From a virus, in the IMG/VR virus record IMGVR_UViG_3300035682_000067, positions 1-43,103 of that record: a DNA stretch of 43,103 nucleotides; one strand, written 5' to 3'. A program made the position numbers and the translations under genes. Shown one piece after another: positions 36,620-43,103 of the stretch (its first letter is position 1; each line of letters starts with the position of its first letter). The notes beneath the pieces are model-generated. The model was not told the DNA's origin and did no database searches. It worked only from the letters and a program-made list of their open reading frames with translations.

Positions 36620-36865
36620 CTATAGCGTGAGGGAATGCTTCCTTGTACGGGTGGGGCACACCCCACGCCTAACCATATAAATCATTACATCTATCCTACG
36701 AAACGCCGTGTTCCTATCCCCACGTTGATACATCGGGGCATCTAGGGCGTAGTCATCACATAGCCTTGCGGCCTCCCCTCTCGTGATGAAGTTGGGTACA
36801 CCTTTGGCGTCTAGTTCTTTTTGTAGTGCGCGGAACTCCCGTAGTTGTATTTTAGTTAGTTTCAT
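36620..36865 (-). CDS. Unknown basic protein, 81 aa
   Basis: ATG 36865 overlaps the upstream stop (ATGA) after AAGGGGGACCAGA. The helical N-terminus (KIQLREFRALQKELDAKGV) and GEAARLCDDYALDAP suggest a small DNA- or protein-binding domain; the C-terminus is basic. A 36-nt gap separates it from the gene downstream. Confidence 0.66.
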   Translation of the reverse strand: MKLTKIQLREFRALQKELDAKGVPNFITRGEAARLCDDYALDAPMYQRGDRNTAFRRIDVMIYMVRRGVCPTRTRKHSLTL

Positions 36866-37116
36866 TCTGGTCCCCCTTGTTTGACGAGTGCCCGGACAGT
36901 GGCAGCGGCTGAGCGCATCAAGGGGTTAAACTCTGGACCGAAGTCGCCACCGTTTTCGGCGTAGAACTTTGCATCAGAAAGCAATTCACCATACTCGTCT
37001 TCCGTTAGGTTGACCAAGAGAGAACGACCTTTGCTGCCTTGGATAGTTTCTGCGCTCAATAGATCACGGTTGATGTGATCGTAAAGAAACGTGGACGCTA
37101 GTGTGTATGTTTTCAT
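36862..37116 (-). CDS. Unknown protein, 84 aa
   Basis: ATG 37116 follows CTACGGGAGGCAACGAA, the ribosome-binding site that lies beside the palindrome at 37134-37153. The product is helical and acidic (NLTEDEYGELLSDAKFYAEN). The palindrome next to its start makes it a likely target of the same regulator as the ArdC and 39697 genes. Confidence 0.7.
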   Translation of the reverse strand: MKTYTLASTFLYDHINRDLLSAETIQGSKGRSLLVNLTEDEYGELLSDAKFYAENGGDFGPEFNPLMRSAAATVRALVKQGGPE

Positions 37117-37133: not shown

Positions 37134-37153
37134 ATTTCCCATTTGTGGGAAAT
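37134..37153. promoter_or_regulatory. Palindromic operator A
   Basis: ATTTCCCA-TTTG-TGGGAAAT, a perfect 8-bp inverted repeat with a 4-nt centre, four bases from the ribosome-binding site of the 84-aa gene. It is the longest of six related palindromes in this region. Confidence 0.68.
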
Positions 37154-39550: not shown

Positions 39551-39697
39551 TCATACCTCTCTGATGGATAGAATTGACCGTTCCGGGCATCGTTCGAACT
39601 TCATGATGAGCGACCGCGCCGTAGCCTCATCGGTAGCGTTGACAGTGATCGTTGTTGGATAGTTGTTGCCTATGAGTTCAATCTTCCATGTTTTCAT
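39551..39697 (-). CDS. Small protein, 48 aa
   Basis: ATG 39697 overlaps the upstream stop (TAATG) after GGTAGGAATC. The first half is a beta hairpin (WKIELIGNNYPTTITVNATD), the second a helix with one Cys. A short beta-beta-alpha fold is plausible. Unknown. Confidence 0.64.
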   Translation of the reverse strand: MKTWKIELIGNNYPTTITVNATDEATARSLIMKFERCPERSILSIREV

Positions 39698-39903
39698 TAG
39701 ATTCCTACCTTTGCGAGTAGTTCGGCTGGCATGGTGCGCGTCAGGTTCGCGGCGGCTTCAAACCGCACCCGATCAAAGTTCGGGTAGTTGCTACGTAGCG
39801 ACCGGGCCACGATGTCTAGCGTTGCTTCCCATGTCCAATCTCCCATGCCTTTGCCTGCTACGCCTAGGGCGGTGGCTAGGATTTTGTAGTCTTTGCGTGT
39901 CAT
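39697..39903 (-). CDS. Unknown protein, 68 aa
   Basis: ATG 39903 with GGGAGGAACACA; the eight-residue extension from 39927 would start inside operator C and is rejected. The helical protein has ATALGVAGKGMGDWTWEATL and ends in an amphipathic helix. First gene of the transcript from the promoter at 39970-39998. Confidence 0.68.
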   Translation of the reverse strand: MTRKDYKILATALGVAGKGMGDWTWEATLDIVARSLRSNYPNFDRVRFEAAANLTRTMPAELLAKVGI

Positions 39904-39920: not shown

Positions 39921-39936
39921 TTCCCATTTGTGGGAA
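39921..39936. promoter_or_regulatory. Palindromic operator C
   Basis: TTCCCA-TTTG-TGGGAA between the promoter at 39970 and the ribosome-binding site of the 68-aa gene. Confidence 0.68.
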
Positions 39937-40021: not shown

Positions 40022-40037
40022 TTCCCACAAATGGGAA
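40022..40037. promoter_or_regulatory. Palindromic operator D
   Basis: TTCCCA-CAAA-TGGGAA, the reverse complement of C, upstream of the promoter at 39970-39998. It is not in a transcript leader of that promoter, which favours a DNA-binding role. Confidence 0.66.
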
Positions 40038-40198: not shown

Positions 40199-40768
40199 CT
40201 AGGCGACCTTTGCCGCCTTAGGTGTTGCGGCGCCGATTTCGGTAGCGACTGCGCGCATCGTATCGAGGATTTCTGCATCGGTTGGCGTCAATTTCATGTG
40301 GAGATCATTAGCGAATTGGCGCGATAACGTGAGCCATTCGGCGCGGCGACTCTCCGGGGTGGTGACGACTACGGCGGGCTTTGCGGCGACCTTGGGCTTT
40401 GCGGCGGCTTTTGTCTTTGCGGCGCGCTTAGCCTTAGCGACGACTGGCATGAGAGCCTCTAAATCCTTTAAAGATTTCGCGCCAGTCATCTGTTCTTTGT
40501 CTAATTGGTCGCCGCACAATTTCACTTTGATAGCGTCGGCCTTGGGGTTAGCGATTAGCCACTTCCCTGTGATGTTGTCGCGCGACACCTTGGACTTGCT
40601 CACTCCCGTAGCGATAACTTTCTTTGCGATCGTGTCCTTCGATGTGGCGAGAGCGATAAGGCCAGCGCGTACCTGCGCGACCTTTGCGGCGCGGTCTTTG
40701 CTGGTCACTGCGTAGTGGAGGATGAGCGCGTTCAGGTAGCCGGTTACGTATTCGTTTGAATCGGACAT
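40199..40768 (-). CDS. Unknown early protein with Lys/Ala linker, 189 aa
   Basis: ATG 40768 with GGGAGGTCCGAA; the 31-residue extension from 40861 runs through the operator/promoter area. Residues 1-85 are helical and include IAKKVIATGVSKSKVSRD, a possible HTH. A linker of Lys/Ala/Pro follows (AKRAAKTKAAAKPKVAAK), then a C-terminal helical domain. It is a separate transcript ended by its own terminator and flanked by operators. A regulator of the early region, or of its own promoter, is plausible but not shown. Confidence 0.75.
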   Translation of the reverse strand: MSDSNEYVTGYLNALILHYAVTSKDRAAKVAQVRAGLIALATSKDTIAKKVIATGVSKSKVSRDNITGKWLIANPKADAIKVKLCGDQLDKEQMTGAKSLKDLEALMPVVAKAKRAAKTKAAAKPKVAAKPAVVVTTPESRRAEWLTLSRQFANDLHMKLTPTDAEILDTMRAVATEIGAATPKAAKVA

Positions 40769-40881: not shown

Positions 40882-40897
40882 TTCCCATTTGTGGGAA
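40882..40897. promoter_or_regulatory. Palindromic operator E
   Basis: TTCCCA-TTTG-TGGGAA, identical to operator C, upstream of the 189-aa gene at the beginning of the gene-free stretch 40862-41341. Confidence 0.66.
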
Positions 40898-41017: not shown

Positions 41018-41033
41018 TCGAACACACGTTCGA
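41018..41033. promoter_or_regulatory. LexA/SOS box 1
   Basis: TCGAAC-ACAC-GTTCGA, a perfect 6-bp inverted repeat that matches the actinobacterial SOS-box form TCGAAC-N4-GTTCGA. Part of the early/late divide. Confidence 0.75.
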
Positions 41034-41069
41034 AGCACAGCGATAACCACCACCCATATAGGTAATGAG

Positions 41070-41085
41070 TCGAACATACGTTCGA
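41070..41085. promoter_or_regulatory. LexA/SOS box 2
   Basis: TCGAAC-ATAC-GTTCGA, 52 bp from box 1, about five turns of the helix, so two dimers could bind on the same DNA face. No clear -35/-10 pair is visible beside it. Confidence 0.75.
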
Positions 41086-41273
41086 AACACTCACCCCTCC
41101 CCCTCCCCCTCTCCCAACACCCGAAACCACCACGGGCTGAGTTGTATGCACGTCCTACCTATTGATGTCAGATAGTCGGACGTCCATGCAAAATGTATGA
41201 CCGGGGGCATGCCGAGACACCCCCACCCCCCCCTATATACATAGGTTTGAGTTCGTGTTGTGTCAATGTTGGT

Positions 41274-41344
41274 GCTCCACTACAGGGGTGTGTTATGCTC
41301 CACAACAGGGTTCCACAACAGGATTGGGGTTGCTCCACAACATG
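41274..41344 (+). repeat. Four direct repeats of GCTCCACAACAGG before the RHH gene
   Basis: Copies begin at 41274 (CTACAGG variant), 41297 (exact), 41310 (GTTCC variant) and 41332 (ending CATG, covering the RHH start codon). Inverted copies occur inside the gene at 41383-41392 (10 bp) and 41642-41654 (perfect 13 bp). Candidate pac site or operator for the RHH protein. Confidence 0.7.
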
Positions 41345-41695
41345 CGTAATGATTACAGGAGTGGCCGTAAGGTGTTGCATGTTGTTGTGGAGGTGGAGTT
41401 GCATGACCGGGTAAAGGCTTTGGCTGCTGCTGCTGGTTGCAGTATCACGGAGTTTGTTACTAAAGTTTTAGAGAAGGGAACAGATTATGTTGCTGACGTT
41501 GGACCCGCAGATAGTGTCATGTCTGGAGCGAAGGGCAGCGTTAACGGAGCACACAGTGCAAGAGGTAGCGGCAGCGGTGTTGTCGGTGGTCCTGTTGGAC
41601 GAGGAGTAGACTGGGACTCTATTCTCGTTGCAGGTAAGAAACCTGTTGTGGAGCCGTCTGTTGTTTCTGCTGATGAATGGTTAGACATTGCGTAA
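41342..41695 (+). CDS. Ribbon-helix-helix DNA-binding protein, 117 aa; possible small terminase
   Basis: ATG 41342 is taken; a GTG at 41372 with AGGAG ten bases upstream is an alternative. The N-terminal domain fits the Arc/CopG ribbon-helix-helix fold: a beta strand VLHVVVEVELHD, helix DRVKALAAAAG, turn, and second helix SITEFVTKVLEKGTDY. A Gly/Ser linker (about residues 55-85) leads to a conserved-looking C-terminal peptide (PSVVSADEWLDIA). It overlaps the TerL start by 8 nt and carries repeat copies in and around its gene. A DNA-recognition subunit for packaging is therefore attractive; a simple autorepressor is the alternative. Confidence 0.72.
   Translation: MRNDYRSGRKVLHVVVEVELHDRVKALAAAAGCSITEFVTKVLEKGTDYVADVGPADSVMSGAKGSVNGAHSARGSGSGVVGGPVGRGVDWDSILVAGKKPVVEPSVVSADEWLDIA
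41642..41654 (-). repeat. Inverted copy of the GCTCCACAACAGG repeat
   Basis: CCTGTTGTGGAGC, the exact reverse complement of the 13-mer, lies near the 3' end of the RHH gene, about 330 bp from the direct copies. A second, shorter inverted copy is at 41383-41392. Confidence 0.65.
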
Positions 41696-43103
41696 AGTTG
41701 ATCTAGACAAGTGGCAGAAATACTTTACCGCCCGCAATGACGGCTTAAGTGTTGATGCGTCTGCTACCAGAGCGAAACTGTCTAACTCCACCGCCTACAG
41801 GTTTGAGCGAGGCGACCCAACGTCCGGTGGCCTAGAAGCCGCATCTGTCCTAGGGATATCTGTCGTTGGCGGCAACCTAGTCTCCCAACCCCTATCCCCC
41901 GAAGCACAACAAGCGTTAGAAGATTTCAGTTACTTTCGTATGAGATATTTTGGGCGCAAATCTTTACCGTGGCAAGAACGAGCAGCCTACGAGGTTCTGC
42001 GGTCGATTGAGTCTCGTGACCGCGAATATGTCGTTATGAACGAACCACCCGGCTCCGGCAAATCCACCCTCTTCACCCACGACATTCCCTGCTGGCTCAT
42101 CGCCCGTGACAGGACGATCCGTATCCAGATTGGTTCTCGCACTGAGCGACAAGCCCGAATGTATGTCAGTCGAATGAAACGTTCCCTAGAACGCGACGCG
42201 CCCCTAAGAACGGACGCTGATTCTCTTACTCGCGGGATTTCTTTTGACGCAGAATCGTGCCTTCAAGACGACTTTGGTGCGTTCAAACCAGAAGGCCGAT
42301 CCGACCTGTGGCGAGGAGAAGCCCTCGTTGTCAGGCAGATAGATGGCGTGCAACTTGACGATAAGGAAGCCACGGTTTCCGCGTGGGGCCAAGACTCAGG
42401 TTTCCTCGGAGGCCGCTTTGATCTTGTCCTGTGGGATGACCTTGTGGATCGTAAGAACACTAAGACCGCTGAGTCGAAGGATCAATTGCGGGAGTGGTGG
42501 GATGCTGAGGCAGAAACCCGCCTAGAACCCGGAGGCACCCTCCTCCTACAAGGGCAGCGAATCCAACACGACGACCTCTACCGTTACTGCCTAGACAAGC
42601 AAACCCTTGACGAAACCCCCAAATATCGGCATGTCGTATTCAAAGCACATGATGAAGACATTTGCACAGGTAACCACGACGAGGTAAAGCCGTGGCCCAA
42701 AGGCTGCCTACTAGACCCACACCGATTGCCGTGGAAACATTTAGAAACTTTGAAGCACAATAATCCGCGCTCGTTTGCCATCATGTACCAGCAAGAAGAC
42801 GCCGACACTATAGGTGGCCTAGTTGATATTGCTTGGATCACCGGAGGGCAAGACGTTGAAGGATACCCTGCACCCGGCTGCCTAGACCGCGAACGGTCAT
42901 TCCTAGAACCACCAGTGAACCTACTCAACGGCAACGGCTGGTCCTTCATCACCGTAGACCCATCCCCAACCGAATGGTGGGGCATCATCTGGTGGCTATA
43001 CGACCCAGACTCAGGCAACCGGTACATTATCGACCTACACAAGCGGCGCATGAACCCAGAACAGTTCTTGTCGTTAGACCTCAACACGTTCGACTGGTCT
43101 GGG
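41688..43103 (+). CDS. Terminase large subunit, N-terminal part (ATPase) with extra HTH-like domain
   Basis: TTG 41688 is the only start: a stop lies two codons upstream and the next ATG is 252 nt further on. The first 60 residues (KYFTARNDGLSVDASATRAK, then LSNSTAYRFERG) resemble a helix-turn-helix. The ATPase follows: Walker A GSGKST (122-127), Walker B LVLWDD (246-251) and coupling motif LLLQGQR (285-291). The protein continues at position 1. Start overlaps the RHH gene by 8 nt, so small regulator and motor are co-translated. Confidence 0.9.
   Translation, partial: MRKVDLDKWQKYFTARNDGLSVDASATRAKLSNSTAYRFERGDPTSGGLEAASVLGISVVGGNLVSQPLSPEAQQALEDFSYFRMRYFGRKSLPWQERAAYEVLRSIESRDREYVVMNEPPGSGKSTLFTHDIPCWLIARDRTIRIQIGSRTERQARMYVSRMKRSLERDAPLRTDADSLTRGISFDAESCLQDDFGAFKPEGRSDLWRGEALVVRQIDGVQLDDKEATVSAWGQDSGFLGGRFDLVLWDDLVDRKNTKTAESKDQLREWWDAEAETRLEPGGTLLLQGQRIQHDDLYRYCLDKQTLDETPKYRHVVFKAHDEDICTGNHDEVKPWPKGCLLDPHRLPWKHLETLKHNNPRSFAIMYQQEDADTIGGLVDIAWITGGQDVEGYPAPGCLDRERSFLEPPVNLLNGNGWSFITVDPSPTEWWGIIWWLYDPDSGNRYIIDLHKRRMNPEQFLSLDLNTFDWSG
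42886..43103. repeat. Right copy of the terminal overlap
   Basis: Matches bases 1-218 apart from five synonymous differences; see the left copy. Counting one copy only, the genome unit is 42,885 bp. Confidence 0.95.

Follow-up and report, generated by a model that had tools for sequence, protein, structure and literature searches.

The window, which is the whole of a 43,103-bp record of a freshwater-type actinobacterial virus, holds two perfect copies of the 16-bp LexA (SOS) box form of Actinomycetales at the divide between early and late genes. The pair is most probably a set of host-LexA operators that would make transcription at the early/late hub responsive to the SOS state of the cell, a reading to which we assign a probability of about 65%. 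Control of phages by host LexA is known already. What is new here is the presence of probable, evolutionarily mobile host-LexA operators in the hub of a Beephvirinae-like actinophage.

The record has a GC content of 50%, and its two ends (1-218 and 42886-43103) overlap over 218 bp, so that it represents a near-complete, circularly assembled phage genome of ~42.9 kb. Five mismatches in the overlap indicate that the contig joins strain variants. The leftward early genes encode a Rad52-like recombinase, an SSB, a Cas4-like exonuclease, a RusA-like resolvase and an ArdC-like antirestriction protein. The first leftward gene (40199-40768, minus strand) is an ORF with a Shine-Dalgarno-like sequence, and its product of ~190 residues (a 189-aa ORF) has a Lys/Ala-rich C-terminal half. 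This protein has no Pfam match, one weak match to a PHROG of unknown function and no relatives of its translation in the viral contigs; its AlphaFold single-sequence model (pLDDT 40) is not interpretable. Judged by eye it looks HTH-like, and it might tentatively be an HTH-type regulator.

The rightward block opens with a ribbon-helix-helix (RHH) protein of HicB/ParD-like type (41342-41695, plus strand), assigned from weak Pfam matches and from a related ORF in relatives. The RHH gene lies directly upstream of the terminase large subunit gene (TerL; 41688-43103, plus strand, running on into 30-656 through the circular overlap; PHROG phrog_38, E=4e-41) and overlaps its start. CTCCACnACA repeats upstream of the RHH gene (41275-41342, plus strand) are probable sites of RHH autoregulation. 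A second RHH-like ORF of 40 aa (MLLTLDPQIVSCLERRAALTEHTVQEVAAAVLSVVLLDEE; 41487-41609, plus strand) lies inside the RHH gene in another frame, where it overlaps the Gly/Ser-rich linker; both frames are kept in six relatives (L030, L032-L036), and the two ORFs are probably overprinted genes preceding TerL. About eleven relatives share with the window a conserved hub element ahead of TerL, ATGACCGGGGGnnTGCC ... TATATACATA (41197-41246; also recorded as GACCGGGGGnnTGCC...TATATACATA), which is a candidate late promoter or cos region. The window has no Rfam match and contains no tRNAs, and cultured phages hold no DNA nearly identical to it.

The two boxes, TCGAACACACGTTCGA at 41018-41033 and TCGAACATACGTTCGA at 41070-41085, were read directly from the sequence as the perfect inverted repeats that the earlier note had described, with a start-to-start distance of 52 bp and a gap of 36 bp. 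Their placement at the early/late divide was likewise borne out: they sit in the middle of the hub between the first leftward gene and the RHH and TerL genes, with the leftward start codon (40768) ~250 bp away on one side and the RHH start ~256 bp away on the other, and are flanked by a C-rich tract. A promoter/terminator scan returned background-level scores for promoters, with no clear promoter overlapping the boxes. No other exact TCGAAC-N4-GTTCGA site occurs in the record. A first-order Markov model predicts 0.0019 such sites per 43-kb record, and chance falls far short of explaining two within 68 bp. At three mismatches the motif falls to background (12 sites seen, 14.9 expected), so the signal consists of the perfect pair only. 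It had also been proposed that the spacing places both boxes on the same face of the DNA. The arithmetic is right, as 52 bp is about five helical turns, but the spacing has no demonstrated meaning; as a general trait of box pairs, face phasing was not upheld across 17 families (Rayleigh p ~0.27), and the two boxes of the relative L139 are 27 bp apart.

The identity of the motif can be read from a bacterial genome that accompanies one of the relatives. A TerL profile run against genomes located L139 in an Actinomycetales metagenome-assembled genome (MAG), G017, where it is binned as contig C45. The sole LexA gene of this MAG has an exact box upstream (L224/L232), another exact box lies ~75 bp before recA (L228) and a further one in the dnaE2 cluster (L229), the names of these genes being read from their translations. 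Exact TCGAAC-N4-GTTCGA sites occur in 58 of 60 sampled genomes of a single Actinomycetales order, the same one to which the MAG belongs, typically in 2-8 copies per genome as against 0-1 for a reversed control pattern. Both 16-mers of the window are found among these host sites. In Streptomyces venezuelae, the motif obtained by LexA ChIP-seq is the 16-bp tCGAAC-N4-GNNCGa (PMC9380542). The attribution of the boxes to the actinobacterial LexA form, together with the expectation that candidate hosts would carry an SOS box of this kind, is supported at the level of the exact letters. By comparison of sites, TCGAAC-N4-GTTCGA is the LexA-box form of Actinomycetales, the window pair likely consists of host LexA boxes, and LexA very probably binds the pair in the natural host. 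The host link for the window consists entirely of the MAG binning of a relative.

Conservation of the pair among close relatives is patchy. Across their whole records, sixteen TerL relatives lack an exact box, including those whose TerL is 74-87% identical to that of the window, which argues that the pair is easily gained and lost. The expectation that related phages would share a pair at this place therefore failed in sixteen cases and held in part for L139, a syntenic genome of 43,036 bp with a 106-bp circular overlap, a TerL 73% identical and matches to 31 window ORFs. Its hub contains an exact box, TCGAACGTGTGTTCGA, which is the reverse complement of the first window box and lies 134 bp before TerL, as well as a box with one mismatch, TCGTACAGGTGTTCGA, 107 bp before TerL. 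The pair is not a lineage-wide trait, as the close relatives with boxes are L139 and L163 only, the latter with one 1-mismatch box at -116. While the window boxes are mid-hub, those of L139 are ~9 bp from the conserved element that precedes TerL, which favors a rightward promoter there. The first leftward gene of L139 has no tblastn match in the window. The same box beside a different first leftward gene favors recognition by a shared host protein, and the persistence of the box among phages whose first leftward genes differ points to LexA as that protein. CGGACAT / TGTCCG motifs are also repeated in the hubs of L036/L053, L139, L268 and L270; the first leftward proteins of L036 and L139 look alike, a hint that this protein reads these motifs.

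More distant phages carry the boxes at the same place. When 2.9 million viral contigs were scanned for pairs of exact boxes, 27 loci had them 24-54 bp apart and 39 had them 4-23 bp apart; the two lists share seven loci, leaving 59 distinct ones. Four of the phages found by motif (L012, L016, L017 and L023) have a window-like hub, flanked on its other side by leftward genes. Their boxes precede a phrog_38 TerL by roughly 400-630 bp; this TerL is 24-26% identical to that of the window and 44-45% identical to those of Streptomyces Beephvirinae, to which these phages are related. The hub of L017 contains a 16-mer identical to the second window box. Searching by TerL alone recovered L059 with two exact boxes, L081 with one, and five more phages with 1-mismatch boxes; in all TerL-found relatives the boxes are upstream of the TerL gene and none is inside it. 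Together, the four motif-found phages, L059 and L081 carry 1-3 exact boxes each, which precede TerL by roughly 400-670 bp. When all 4096 half-sites with a 4-bp spacing were ranked neutrally over 123 de-duplicated 1-kb regions upstream of TerL, TCGAAC placed fifth, with nine loci (up to one mismatch) against a mean of 0.37 upstream and none in 111 downstream regions. On these counts, the hub carries LexA boxes repeatedly but sporadically.

The LexA-box theme is wider than the lineage of the window, because some of the 59 loci belong to different elements and lie near their helicase genes (L007, L019). In L019, and in L007 with its two boxes, the gene near the boxes is an SNF2-type helicase gene. 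Clusters of 4-6 perfect boxes of the LexA form are present in L003 (7105-7333), L019 (472-740) and L010 (3882-4042). A different dyad, TGTGAcnnnnnTCACA, which has the CRP/GlxR form, precedes TerL in about 30 of 58 phages of the L012-type group (L059-L137) and in cultured Beephvirinae (Streptomyces phages L268-L270). It is possibly the site of a second host regulator.

The window also contains a second, phage-specific family of dyads, on which the earlier note was silent. The dyad TTCCCATTTGTGGGAA is present in four copies, perfect including the spacer, in the early-gene regions near leftward gene starts: upstream of the first leftward gene (40882-40897), reversed in an intergenic region of the early operon (40022-40037), just upstream of the leftward ORF 39697-39903 (39921-39936), and ~20 bp upstream of the leftward ORF 36862-37116 (37136-37151). 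Some relatives have multi-copy early-region dyads of their own, GTGACACcGTGTCAC in nine copies in L052, CCCCCAnnTGGGGG in four copies in L049, and a AACCGACCnnGGTCGGTT-type (AACCGACC-type) dyad in seven copies in the early region of L054. Such changing multi-copy dyads, with up to nine copies, resemble a dispersed operator system with shifting specificity. Since both the window and some of its relatives carry phage-specific dyads, a phage-encoded regulator probably exists. The LexA-type pair is an addition to the phage-specific operator system of the lineage.

In overall organization the phage resembles the Beephvirinae, or cluster BI, Streptomyces phages Stella, Abafar and WRightOn, in which TerL also heads a rightward late block, the early block is leftward and the hub lies between them. 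About 10 window ORFs, including TerL, the major capsid protein and tail proteins, match Beephvirinae colinearly at roughly 21-45% identity; by these values the phage is Beephvirinae-like and too distant for membership in the subfamily. Unlike the window, the genomes of Stella, Abafar and WRightOn lack TCGAAC-N4-GTTCGA at 0-1 mismatch. Abafar has been described as virulent and without lysogeny genes (PMC11536984). The closest functional precedent is GIL01, a tectivirus of Bacillus thuringiensis that likewise has LexA-type boxes in its regulatory region and needs no integration; host LexA binds SOS boxes in its promoters (dinBox1, 1b, 2 and 3) and thereby controls the early promoter (P1) as well as the late one (P3) (PMC4551915; PMC6182141). 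However, GIL01 is a small temperate tectivirus with a helper protein, gp7, whereas the window is a 43-kb tailed actinophage with boxes in the actinobacterial form. Host LexA boxes are also found in the regulatory regions of LexA-controlled prophages, among them the CTX phage of Vibrio cholerae and the 'SOS-dependent prophages' of PSOSP (PMC12527982), but the window, unlike these, shows no lysogeny genes. The LexA regulon of S. venezuelae, which includes a phage-tail gene cluster among its strongly induced targets (PMC9380542), shares the 16-bp motif with the window but is a chromosomal regulon rather than a free phage. No report of LexA boxes in actinophages or virulent phages was found in the literature searched, a search with most subscription journals outside its coverage.

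These observations suggest a mechanism in which host LexA dimers would occupy both boxes in an undamaged cell and repress transcription that starts in or crosses the hub. Self-cleavage of LexA, prompted by RecA* when DNA is damaged from outside or by the infection itself, would then release the hub. Alongside the pair, a regulator encoded by the phage itself would control the early genes through the TTCCCATTTGTGGGAA dyads. Binding by LexA and repression as the sign of its effect are both presumed here from sequence, and the controlled promoter could be leftward, rightward or both. By analogy with GIL01, release of the hub from host LexA appears to be the most economical reading.

The earlier note had gone further and suggested that the phage may borrow host LexA as its repressor and switch on when the host suffers DNA damage, a claim that is possible but overstated. 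In its strongest form, the phage would be a temperate episome without an integrase, as GIL01 is, with LexA at the pair serving as the main lysogeny repressor until DNA damage releases it. The note was correct that the window has no visible integrase or classic repressor gene: there is no match to an S24 peptidase or a LexA DNA-binding domain (PF00717, PF01726) at E<=1, nor to a tyrosine or serine recombinase (PF00589, PF00239). This absence, the location of the boxes where a genetic switch would be expected, the exact precedent of GIL01 (PMC4551915; PMC6182141) and the binning of a relative in a bacterial MAG all speak for such a lifestyle. Against it, the window has no match to a ParA-type partition ATPase and no recognizable maintenance genes, Abafar shares the architecture and is virulent, most close relatives have no box, and the phage-specific dyad family suggests that another regulator is at work. 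LexA-maintained lysogeny is therefore considered unlikely. Because lysogeny genes are lacking and the virulent Abafar is boxless, a role in a purely lytic cycle is a live alternative. A virulent tailed lineage may repeatedly acquire LexA boxes at the early/late divide for ends other than lysogeny. Its own attack on host DNA would raise the SOS state of the cell, which could then time expression of the late genes or the terminase; alternatively, the boxes could titrate LexA. This is a tentative proposal, somewhat more plausible than lysogeny and well short of even odds.

Titration on its own, in which the boxes of accumulating phage DNA would soak up LexA, so that host repair and nucleotide genes are derepressed, and would play no part at phage promoters, is improbable. 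In a group whose phages are not known to lysogenize, perfect and presumably high-affinity boxes would suit a decoy, as would their distance from both start codons and the clusters of up to 5-6 boxes in other phages (L003, L019); however, there are just two sites per genome, they are at the regulatory hub rather than at random places, and no precedent was found in the literature searched. It is slightly less probable still that the pair serves a repressor encoded by the phage, whose operator happens to be TCGAAC-N4-GTTCGA without any tie to LexA. The phage-specific dyads in the same region of L052, L054 and L049 do point to repressors with variable operators in this lineage, but the window already has a dyad family of its own, the box is common to phages with different first leftward genes, and it matches the host SOS box in every letter. 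A part in packaging, as a cos or recombination site bound by a phage packaging protein, seems very improbable. The linear genome ends of the architecture-sharing Beephvirinae do fall within this hub, some 630-660 bp ahead of TerL, and the C-rich tract beside the boxes would fit such a site; yet close relatives share the hub and not the boxes, and LexA identity accounts better for the exact letters. Chance, with which the absence of the pair from most relatives would agree, can be practically dismissed given the very low expectation for even one exact site and the recurrence of boxes at the same hub in unselected relatives.

Host-LexA control has so far been worked out in a few prophages. Here, perfect LexA boxes come and go at one fixed place in uncultured actinophages that are related to virulent isolates. 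The question of whether lytic phages read the SOS response has thereby become directly testable. Such coming and going suggests that the sensing of host stress can be plugged into and out of a phage switch by a site of 16 bp.
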